Assembly (NCBI GenBank): GCA_947389015.1 | Contig: CANDVA010000019.1 | Location: 1-53,389 of the forward strand | Length of the DNA: 53,389 bases | Direction of reading: 5' to 3' | From: an uncultured Clostridia bacterium | Lineage (GTDB): Bacteria > Bacillota > Clostridia > Oscillospirales > Ruminococcaceae | In this document: positions 11,004-38,413 of the stretch, piece after piece | Layout: each line of letters starts with the position of its first letter | Numbering within the stretch: position 1 is the stretch's first letter | Made by a program: the position numbers and the translations under genes | Notes under the pieces: model-generated | What the model was told of the DNA's origin: nothing | The model's input: the letters and a program-made list of their open reading frames with translations, nothing else | Database searches by the model: none

Positions 11004-11009
11004 GCTGAT

Positions 11010-11249
11010 AATGACTGTGAATATGTGTAAGTAGCATTTCGGAAGACCGATTTCAGAGAATGAGCGTCTATGGGCTGAGAGCGCTCTGTCGGGCGAGGTG
11101 TGAATTTCAGCATTGGAGTTGCCTGCGAGAAAGTAAGCAGAGCCGTTTTGCCGCGTTAAGGCTTTCAAGTGCGGAGCGTCCGCTCCGAATTTGGGTGGTA
11201 CCGCGGATTATTATTCCGTCCCAATTTTGGGACGGATTTTTTGTTTTTG
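11010..11249 (+). promoter_or_regulatory. T-box leader (tRNA-Phe sensing) upstream of pheS
   Basis: The core GGGTGGTACCGCGG (11193-11206) is the T-box sequence that pairs with the free acceptor end of uncharged tRNA. A Stem I region precedes it, and a TTTC stretch near 11104-11107 offers a Phe codon (TTT or TTC) as specifier. A terminator follows at 11213-11247. Uncharged tRNA-Phe would stabilise the antiterminator built around the T-box and allow pheST transcription. The specifier position is inferred; the T-box itself is clear. The neighbouring genes encode Phe-tRNA synthetase, as expected. Confidence 0.92.
11213..11247 (+). terminator. T-box attenuator terminator
   Basis: ATTCCGTCCC (11213-11222) pairs with GGGACGGAT (11229-11237) around AATTTT and is followed by a T-rich tract (TTTTTTGTTTTT). 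It is mutually exclusive with the antiterminator formed by the preceding T-box sequence. Confidence 0.92.
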
Positions 11250-36201: not shown

Positions 36202-36642
36202 ATGAAAATTCTGGTTATAAACGGTCCGAATTTAAATCTTCTTGGCGAGCGCGAGCCCGCCGTTTACGGCGGCGATTCGCTCCAGGCGATAAACGACGAG
36301 CTGTTCACGAGGGCGAAAAGAATGGGCTATGATATGGCGTTTTTTCAGAGCTCGAACGAGGGCAGCATTATCGACCGTCTGCACGATTCGCGTCTGGATT
36401 GCGCGGGCGTGATACTCAACGCGGGCGCGTACACGCATTACAGCTACGCGATACGCGACGCGATTGCGGCGATAAATATCCCCGTTATCGAGGTTCACCT
36501 CAGCAATATCAACAACCGCGACGAGTTCCGCAAAACGAGCGTTATCGCGCCCGTATGCCGCGGCAGTATCGCGGGCTTCGGAAAGATCAGCTATATGCTC
36601 GCGCTGAACGCGCTTGATTATCTTTTCGGTGAACAGAAATGA
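36202..36642 (+). CDS. aroQ: 3-dehydroquinate dehydratase, type II
   Basis: A 146-residue enzyme of the shikimate pathway. The N-terminus ILVINGPNLNLLGEREPAVY, the LNAGAYTHYSYAIRDA helix with the catalytic His, and EVHLSNINNRDEFRK are all present; length is standard. It dehydrates 3-dehydroquinate to 3-dehydroshikimate as a dodecamer. GGAGG is 8 nt before the ATG, and its stop overlaps the following M24-like gene (ATGA). Confidence 0.97.
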   Translation: MKILVINGPNLNLLGEREPAVYGGDSLQAINDELFTRAKRMGYDMAFFQSSNEGSIIDRLHDSRLDCAGVILNAGAYTHYSYAIRDAIAAINIPVIEVHLSNINNRDEFRKTSVIAPVCRGSIAGFGKISYMLALNALDYLFGEQK

Positions 36643-37700
36643 GCCGTGTGGACGATATCGTTGAGTGGCTTCCCGATGAGCGCAGCGCAGCGCTGATAAC
36701 CTCGCCGCTTTCGCTGAGGTATATATGCGGCTTTCCTATTGAGAACAGCATTCTGCTCGCGTTTCACGAGCGGAGCATTCTTTTTGTGATGGCGCGGGAT
36801 TTCGAGGAGGCGACCGAGAAAGCAGACGGCTTTTCAGTGCAGGTGCTCAGCAGCGGAAGACAAATGCTCGAGCTGCTGATAAAGTACAGCGTAAAGCGAA
36901 TTTACACCGAGGCGGATAAGATCACCGTCGCCGAGTTCAACACCTATAAGGAGCAGCTCCATTACGCGAACGTTCTCGCGTCGGAGGAGCTTTCGGACAA
37001 GCTTGTGCAGATGCGGACGGTGAAATCCGACGAGGAGATCGTCGCCATACTTAACGCGCAGAAGATATGCGACAAGGCGTACGAGCGAATACTCGGCACC
37101 GCGCGCAGGGGAATGACCGAGCGACAGATCGCGGCGCTGCTGGGCTTTTATATAATGGACTACGGCGCGGAGGAGATCGCGTTCCCGACGATAGCGCTGT
37201 CGGGCGAGAACACCGCAAATCAGCGCGCCAAGCCGTCCGACAGGCAGATACGCGACGGCGACTTCCTTGTCCTGGAATTCGGGGCGCGGTATAACGGTTA
37301 TTGCGCGTCCATGTGCAGGACGGTCGCTGTCGGCTCGATAGATTCGACGCGCGACAATATGTACAACGCGGTATCGTGCGCGCTGCAGGACGGGCTGAAG
37401 TCGCTGCGCGCGGGAATAGGCGGCAAGGTCGCCGACAGCGTGGCAAAGGCGACGCTCAACGCGTGGGGCGCGGACAAGTACTGTTCGGTGAATTTTGCTC
37501 ACGGAATAGGTCTTGAGGCTGTGGAGCCGCCGTTTTTGCGGCAGGGGAGCAGCGTTATGCTTAAAGCTAAGACCGCGCTCTCGACCGCGTGTGGGGTAAG
37601 CATGGGGCGTTACGGCATTAAAATGGGCGATATGGCCGTGCTTACGGAGGAGGGCTGCGCGGACCTCACCGCCGCGACAAAGAGCCTTGTTCACATCTGA
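36639..37700 (+). CDS. M24B (Xaa-Pro aminopeptidase-like) protein with degenerate metal site
   Basis: A 353-residue creatinase/prolidase-fold protein in the usual place of the aminopeptidase P homologue between aroQ and efp. The fold is kept, but the metal ligands are altered. The first Asp is Glu213 (FLVLEFGARYNGY), the second Ser224 (YCASMCRT in place of SDxTRT). His288 is kept (FAHGIGLEAVE). The two Glu ligands are Ala317 (STACGVS for T-x-EPG) and Gly330 (IKMGD for RIED). The substrate His of PHG appears to be Arg196. It is therefore likely to be catalytically dead and act by binding, possibly a proline peptide or EF-P. Confidence 0.85.
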   Translation: MSRVDDIVEWLPDERSAALITSPLSLRYICGFPIENSILLAFHERSILFVMARDFEEATEKADGFSVQVLSSGRQMLELLIKYSVKRIYTEADKITVAEFNTYKEQLHYANVLASEELSDKLVQMRTVKSDEEIVAILNAQKICDKAYERILGTARRGMTERQIAALLGFYIMDYGAEEIAFPTIALSGENTANQRAKPSDRQIRDGDFLVLEFGARYNGYCASMCRTVAVGSIDSTRDNMYNAVSCALQDGLKSLRAGIGGKVADSVAKATLNAWGADKYCSVNFAHGIGLEAVEPPFLRQGSSVMLKAKTALSTACGVSMGRYGIKMGDMAVLTEEGCADLTAATKSLVHI

Positions 37701-37852: not shown

Positions 37853-38413
37853 ATGATTACAGCGGGAGATTTCAGAAACGGAATGACATTTGAAGAGGAC
37901 GGAAACGTAATGCAGATCATCGAGTTCCAGCACGTTAAGCCCGGCAAGGGCGCTGCGTTCGTCCGCACTAAGGTAAAGAACGTTATCACGGGGTCGGTGG
38001 TTGAAAAGACCTACAACCCGTCCGCAAAGTTCCCCACGGCTTTTGTGGAGAGAAAGGATATGCAGTACTCCTACTCCGACGGCGAGCTGTATCACTTTAT
38101 GGATCAGGAGACCTACGAGGATGTTCCCGTTAACGCGAGTGAGGTCGGCGATAATTTCAAGTTCGTCAAGGAAGAGATGATGTGCAAGGTTTTGTCCTAC
38201 AAGGGCAAGGTGTTCGGCGTTGAGCCGCCCAACTTTGTTGAGCTTCAGGTAACTCAGACCGATCCCGGTTTCGCCGGAAATACGGCTACAAATGCGACCA
38301 AACCCGCAACTCTCGAGACCGGCGCAGAGATCCGTGTTCCGCTGTTCATCAACGAGGGCGAGGTCATCAGGATCGATACTCGTACAGGCGAGTATATGGA
38401 GCGCGTAAAGTAA
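37853..38413 (+). CDS. efp: Elongation factor P
   Basis: A 186-residue EF-P with three beta-barrel domains. The loop [15 protein letters not shown] holds the conserved Lys tip that enters the ribosomal A-site side of the peptidyl-transferase centre. It relieves stalling at polyproline stretches. The C-terminus ends [15 protein letters not shown], as usual. Modification enzymes for the tip Lys are not in this window. It has its own promoter and lies after the M24-like gene. Confidence 0.97.

Follow-up and report, generated by a model that had tools for sequence, protein, structure and literature searches.

Why would a bacterium keep, beside the gene for elongation factor P (EF-P, encoded by efp), an aminopeptidase that has lost most of its metal site? 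The question is raised by P0001, a YqhT-type protein of the M24B family (aminopeptidase P and prolidase) encoded in a 53,389-nucleotide stretch of DNA from an uncultured Clostridia bacterium of the Ruminococcaceae (contig CANDVA010000019.1); we call the whole of this stretch the window. From sequence comparisons across the genus, the family and the order, we consider it likely, though short of certain, that P0001 is a pseudoenzyme that was kept after a second, longer aminopeptidase P of the XPNPEP1 type displaced its activity, and that it now acts most likely as a binding scaffold. The protein, its domains and the codons that matter most here are:

36639..37700, plus strand: YqhT-type M24B protein with a dead metal site, P0001, 353 amino acids (open reading frame, Pfam, alignments)
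36639..36998, plus strand: N-terminal Creatinase_N domain, residues 1-120, rounded (Pfam match at residues 16-119)
36999..37697, plus strand: pita-bread domain with the ruined metal site, residues 121-353, rounded (Pfam Peptidase_M24 match at 137-337; AlphaFold2; fold matches)
37224..37226, plus strand: Arg196 codon, His in intact relatives (alignment)
37275..37277, plus strand: Glu213 codon, metal ligand Asp in intact relatives (alignment)
37308..37310, plus strand: Ser224 codon, metal ligand Asp in intact relatives (alignment)
37488..37490, plus strand: Val284 codon, His in intact relatives (alignment)
37500..37502, plus strand: His288 codon, the sole classical ligand kept (alignment)
37521..37523, plus strand: Val295 codon, His in intact relatives (alignment)
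37587..37589, plus strand: Ala317 codon, metal ligand Glu in intact relatives (alignment)
37626..37628, plus strand: Gly330 codon, metal ligand Glu in intact relatives (alignment)

By sequence and fold P0001 belongs to M24B: its Creatinase_N and Peptidase_M24 domains are both complete, and the solved structures nearest to it are those of X-Pro peptidases some 350 residues long. A first-pass annotation of this DNA had assigned it the creatinase/prolidase fold and the usual place between aroQ and efp, and Pfam domains, fold matches and loci all agree. The five metal ligands of the family (Asp, Asp, His, Glu, Glu) read Glu213, Ser224, His288, Ala317 and Gly330 in P0001, with four of the five changed, and the histidines that intact relatives carry at positions 196, 284 and 295 have become Arg196, Val284 and Val295; the metal, catalytic and substrate roles of these positions are those that we take the family to have. 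P0001 thus lacks both the set of five ligands and the set of three histidines that mark an active M24B metallopeptidase, although the change from Asp to Glu213 is conservative. The first-pass annotation had named the four changed ligands, the retained His288 and the losses at 196 and 295, to be checked by alignment with M24B proteins and efp-linked orthologues. Pairwise alignments to 2zsg, 3q6d, 1wn1 and 4rgz and multiple alignments with intact relatives give one and the same register, in which every entry of that list is correct; the list missed the loss of His at 284 and the N-terminal D51-x-R53-Y54 motif of intact relatives, which reads M-A-R-D at 51-54 in P0001. Because the flanking motif residues are in place in the pairwise and multiple alignments (F214-G215-A216, R227-T228, G289, G291, E296, P298 and D331), we reject the possibility that the ligands are present but shifted. 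The E. coli enzyme is inactivated by changes of Asp260, Asp271 or His243, according to one account (PMC10377022), and in our own mapping these residues correspond to positions 213, 224 and 196. Judged by these residues, it is very unlikely that P0001 is a working M24 peptidase.

P0001 is no isolated oddity, and its dead relatives form a clade. Among 43 genomes of the genus, 30 have a dead copy, nine an intact copy, one bin (G015) both, and three none that we could see; of these three, G016 and G018 gave no match to efp at 1e-30, and in G014 efp lies at a contig start. Four copies are partial, two intact (G010, G027) and two dead (G024, G039, cut by contig ends), and the 28 full-length dead copies include the one on the G015 contig. 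D224, E317 and E330 are absent from all 28, with His288 kept in 23 and an acidic residue at 213 in 27. An assembly or sequencing artefact was considered and rejected; because 30 genomes carry dead copies, with records from several metagenome-assembled genome (MAG) projects, assembly error is very unlikely. Twenty-nine dead copies escape truncation at a contig end, and all but one of them have uninterrupted frames, the exception being L052 (G001), whose frameshift may be a sequencing error or real decay.

The G015 bin contains a dead as well as an intact efp locus, each complete (L050, L034). Since its RpoB and RpoC group with the intact species and it has no long M24 frame, G015 is probably a mixed bin of two species, with the dead contig as contamination.

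In YqhT trees built under two models, one of them a mixture model, all of the dead copies included join as one group, which nests within the intact YqhT of the genus. These trees omit the fragments L041-L046, and hence G027 and G010, and the mixture-model tree, with 40 rows, was also made without L028, L030, L052 and L060. A tree of RpoB and RpoC from 40 genomes places the 24 dead-copy species together with G016 and G018 in one group (Shimodaira-Hasegawa-like approximate likelihood ratio test, SH-aLRT, 99.1; bootstrap 99), with the intact G027 as its sister (100/100) and the other intact species outside. An artefact that draws fast-evolving dead sequences together is countered by the mixture model and by RpoB/RpoC, both of which give one dead clade. 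With three of four trees in agreement, the metal site was most likely lost once, in the ancestor of a clade within the genus. L039 and L049, the first branches of the dead clade in the YqhT and RpoB/RpoC trees, carry Cys at both 196 and 295, and at 288 their His is replaced by Cys or Ser.

What did the dead-copy species have in place of a working YqhT? In the window genome, PF00557 matches two further frames, one of 302 amino acids (the size of a methionine aminopeptidase) and a long enzyme of 586 amino acids (P0002); an active YqhT paralogue beside the dead copy is thereby rejected for this genome. P0002 consists of Creatinase_N, Creatinase_N_2, Peptidase_M24 and Peptidase_M24_C domains, its best solved match is Xaa-Pro aminopeptidase 1 (3ctz, E 2.8e-123), and its ligands are in place in the alignment. 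Across the genus, a long M24 frame (a PF00557 match in a frame of more than 500 amino acids, here 516-701; partial in G024) is present in all 30 dead-copy genomes and all three genomes without a copy, and was not found in any of the nine intact genomes or in G015; only the window copy, P0002, was aligned to XPNPEP1.

Outside the genus the two proteins likewise have complementary distributions, in family and order counts that are uncorrected for kinship. Of 194 family genomes, 57 have the long enzyme (E 1e-40), 124 an intact YqhT, three both and 16 neither, and the 97 whose intact YqhT is efp-linked all lack the long enzyme, "efp-linked" meaning that efp lies within the fetched stretch; counting the intact efp-linked YqhT of G142 raises the 124 to 125 and the 97 to 98. 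We examined 55 efp loci from the 57 long-enzyme genomes (G068 has no efp match, and efp is split in G159), and 54 have no M24 frame beside efp, including those of the three genomes with both proteins. The remaining locus, in G102, from another genus of which one genome was sampled, holds a second, independent dead YqhT, with D51, R53 and Y54 lost (L209, L228). Within three genera (g30, g70 and g101), pairs of genomes switch in the same direction; in g101, the long enzyme is absent from G142, whose intact YqhT is efp-linked, and present in G223, whose efp locus lacks yqhT. Among the matches listed, one per genome, the seven-residue motif is intact in 123 of 127 family YqhT proteins, cut off in one and altered in three (G102, G142, G223). 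Two of these altered proteins, L201 (G142) and L202 (G223), are YqhT-like with partly altered sites and no efp match in the fetched stretch; G142 also has its intact YqhT beside efp (L263). At the level of the order (255 genomes), 18 have the long enzyme, 12 of them outside the family, in three other families; a YqhT match is absent from nine of the 12 (E 1e-40) and weak in three (3.8e-43 to 2.9e-49), whereas of the 237 genomes that lack the long enzyme 217 show a match. The simplest reading of this distribution is that YqhT and the long enzyme do the same work and that genomes carrying the long enzyme have usually lost yqhT.

The dead clade did not lose the gene, and the protein it encodes is under purifying selection, as expected of a pseudoenzyme. 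Omega, the ratio of nonsynonymous to synonymous rates, is 0.143 for 28 dead yqhT genes versus 0.066 for eight intact ones, about twofold higher; the codon analyses exclude G001 (frameshift), G024 and G039 (cuts at contig ends). The corresponding values for neighbouring control genes in dead-clade and intact species are 0.084 and 0.057 for the AP endonuclease gene, 0.115 and 0.065 for aroQ, and 0.025 and 0.045 for efp, the aroQ value of the dead set and both efp values being rough, with extreme kappa (35, 47 and 10). In two shallow dead subclades omega is 0.097 and 0.117, and omega = 1, fitted with tree shape and kappa held fixed, is worse by 220 and 374 log units; 13 pairs were also compared by the NG86 method, some with synonymous divergence (dS) above 1. 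The purifying selection implies that the protein is very likely needed for something, and, because selection preserves it although it is very unlikely to be a peptidase, it more probably serves in binding or as a structural element.

The conserved positions suggest which part of the protein matters. In a comparison of 28 dead and 15 intact copies, 45 columns are conserved in both alike. Another 22 are conserved in the intact copies and lost in the dead ones, 18 of them within 185-330, the region of the metal-site motifs, and four N-terminal (26, 51, 54 and 58). The substrate-histidine positions, nearly invariant in intact relatives, are among the most variable in the dead clade (196 at the 100th percentile, 295 at the 90th, 284 at the 88th); P195, D51, R53 and Y54 are likewise much more variable there, and the metal positions rank lower, from the 41st percentile (288) and the 47th (213) up to the 80th (317). 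Since the substrate-histidine positions are so variable, a function through the old substrate pocket is unlikely, and a retained scaffold is the likely alternative. The first-pass annotation had proposed a proline-peptide-binding protein with a binding or regulatory role; the selection data support a non-catalytic role, and the variability of the pocket speaks against the proline peptide.

We propose the following history. An ancestral YqhT/PapA-type aminopeptidase P would have become a pseudoenzyme, most likely once, in the ancestor of a clade inside the genus, with the metal site lost at about the time that the clade came to carry the long XPNPEP1-type enzyme. X-Pro cleavage most likely passed to the long enzyme, and YqhT would thereby have been freed from having to keep its metal site. 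Most long-enzyme relatives have no yqhT at efp; this clade retained the protein, most likely as a non-catalytic scaffold or binding protein that works through its conserved fold and not through the old proline pocket. As read from genomes, the loss of the metal site, the purifying selection, the kept place and the complementary distribution with the long enzyme are features of the clade; the takeover of activity and the binding or scaffold role of the folded protein are the most likely account of them.

Several points weigh against this history. A tree of the neighbouring genes (AP endonuclease, aroQ and efp) nests intact species among dead ones (support of 79-97 for the branches concerned, and of 40 for the root of the genus) and, if right, would imply repeated loss, or else a regain; given the support of 40 at the genus root and the fewer columns, we trust it less than the YqhT and RpoB/RpoC trees, and the number of losses is less sure than the nesting of the dead copies. 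Within the genus, the association of dead yqhT with the long enzyme is one evolutionary event, and the absence of the long enzyme is less certain in four of the nine intact genomes, because these are 73-83% complete (the other five are at least 90% complete). The Fisher value of 1.2e-29 for the exclusion in the family is uncorrected for kinship. G149 and G211 also have intact M24B paralogues, without efp in the fetched stretch and outside the family table, and G223 retains other M24B copies elsewhere; because long-enzyme genomes can carry such paralogues away from efp, there are further sources of activity. The 131 intact sequences of the conservation analysis were picked by motif, so that their invariance at seven sites is partly by construction. 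All 29 genus loci found by name are MAG records. The AlphaFold2 model of P0001 (mean predicted local distance difference test score, pLDDT, 95.7; predicted template modelling score, pTM, 0.91) is no proof of the fold, because its input of 103 locus sequences comprised 28 dead and 75 intact ones. Finally, because position 213 stays acidic and His288 is mostly kept, P0001 may bind a weak single metal.

The immediate surroundings of the gene bear on one of the other explanations, and comprise:

36202..36642, plus strand: aroQ (open reading frame coordinates)
37853..38413, plus strand: efp, elongation factor P, 186 amino acids, P0003 (open reading frame coordinates)

The names aroQ and efp are those of the first-pass annotation, which we presume from general knowledge to be right. 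The stop of aroQ and the start of yqhT share four bases, 152 bases separate the stop of yqhT from the start of efp, and the order aroQ - yqhT - efp, which defines the YqhT of the efp locus, is found in the window and in genus and family loci. No RNA element was found between aroQ and efp in the window at the Rfam gathering threshold; elsewhere in the window, a T-box leader lies at 11008-11226 (RF00230, 102.6 bits). In some species the gap between dead yqhT and efp holds small genes, for a SUKH-1 (SMI1/KNR4) protein and a DUF6194 protein (L025:2726-3103, L009:912-1361). The gap is 528-714 bases long in L011 and L027-L029, and an Rfam scan of L011, L027 and L029 gave no match.

One alternative is that dead YqhT is a regulatory heterodimer partner of the long enzyme, as proposed for PID-5 and APP-1 of C. 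elegans (PMC10377022). The two proteins occur together in 30/30 dead-copy genomes, and the independent dead YqhT of G102 is also accompanied by the long enzyme. Nonetheless, we regard such a partnership as unlikely: displacement alone also predicts the co-occurrence, the domain architectures of the two proteins differ, and the 54 long-enzyme efp loci without yqhT indicate that a partner is not generally needed.

In a second alternative, close to the first-pass proposal of a coupling to the EF-P locus, the dead protein would bind proline peptides as a sensor, either reporting on EF-P-dependent translation or regulating it. It has been proposed that the active neighbour of efp clears proline-rich products of stalled translation (PMC7327921 and PMC4993169); one of these papers, on EF-P of S. 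aureus, suggests a link between the enzyme next door and polyproline stalling (PMC7327921), and a table of sporulation mutants of B. subtilis lists yqhT as well as efp (PMC4703394). Moreover, efp lies in the fetched stretch beside 25/28 full-length dead genes, and the other three loci reach contig edges. However, intact YqhT ancestrally sits beside efp, so a coupling would rest on inherited gene order; efp does without yqhT in 54 of 55 loci of long-enzyme relatives; and the substrate-histidine positions have become highly variable. A sensor is thus decidedly improbable.

There is also a very slim chance that the remodelled site has gained a new catalytic or metal function, for instance one metal on residue 213 and His288, or a chemistry that uses nearby gained cysteines. 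Besides the retention of these two residues, the dead clade has cysteines that are absent or rarer in intact copies (C247 in 27/28, C144 in 25/28, C318 in 22/28 and C282 in 14/28), and the combination Glu213, Lys224 and Lys317 recurs in 5/28. Our search of the dead clade for a new conserved active site nevertheless found scattered substitutions and some gained cysteines and no new catalytic set, and there is no clade-wide replacement, position 224 being S, K, R, E, V or Q and position 317 G, K, A, H, N, S or V. Least credible of all is a functionless gene that is decaying and not yet lost, which would fit the doubled omega and the frameshifted copy (L052) but not the rejection of omega = 1 in both shallow subclades or the uninterrupted frames of the other 28 dead copies.

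A pseudoenzyme kept after displacement has partial likenesses elsewhere. P0001 shares fold, length, domain order and place with the YqhT/PapA-type Xaa-Pro aminopeptidases found beside efp in Firmicutes (2zsg, 3q6d, 5cnx), and is unlike them in its four changed ligands and the three missing catalytic or substrate histidines. Dead M24 proteins are already known in eukaryotes, and the bacterial efp-linked case adds an unusually clear history. Of the eukaryotic ones, EBP1 (PA2G4) has a ribosome link, and the N-terminal domain of Spt16 (FACT) is a dead M24 protein; Spt16 is among the fold matches of P0001. The metal positions of EBP1 are occupied by D109, N120, H188, D227 and K320 (PMC11266112), so that EBP1 resembles P0001 in having lost ligands and kept the His, with Lys for an acidic ligand as in part of the dead clade (Lys224 in 9/28, Lys317 in 6/28); it is eukaryotic and of the methionine aminopeptidase branch (M24A), whereas YqhT is M24B. 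PID-5 has an aminopeptidase-P-related domain with lost ligands and is called a possible "pseudo-APP" (PMC10377022). On the same account, the genome that encodes PID-5 still has its relative APP-1, whereas P0001 is its locus's own YqhT, and the enzyme remaining in the window genome is of another subfamily. By match scores, P0001 is closer to active prolidases and to the YqhT-type proteins of this locus than to M24 pseudopeptidases, and we take the likeness to EBP1, PID-5 and Spt16 as an analogy. It is conceivable, if doubtful, that the dead YqhT parallels in bacteria the ribosome-linked M24 pseudoenzymes of eukaryotes, having been recruited non-catalytically to EF-P-dependent or proline-related translation once an XPNPEP1-type enzyme had displaced its activity, and that the protein of G102 was independently recruited likewise. 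Among the listed matches in the open-access literature (titles and the starts of abstracts), none described a YqhT pseudoenzyme in bacteria or a mutual exclusion of YqhT and XPNPEP1-type enzymes.

Many pseudoenzymes arise by duplication, and these hide when and why the copy died, because the active parent stays. Here, the locus's own enzyme seems to have died in place, and intact sister species and an identifiable branch are available for comparison. A plausible cause of its death is the presence of a second enzyme for the same job, and the many relatives that lack the gene under the same condition provide a natural control. The question of why a dead enzyme is kept becomes directly testable in this clade, which also prompts one to ask what role YqhT has beside efp beyond the cutting of peptides.
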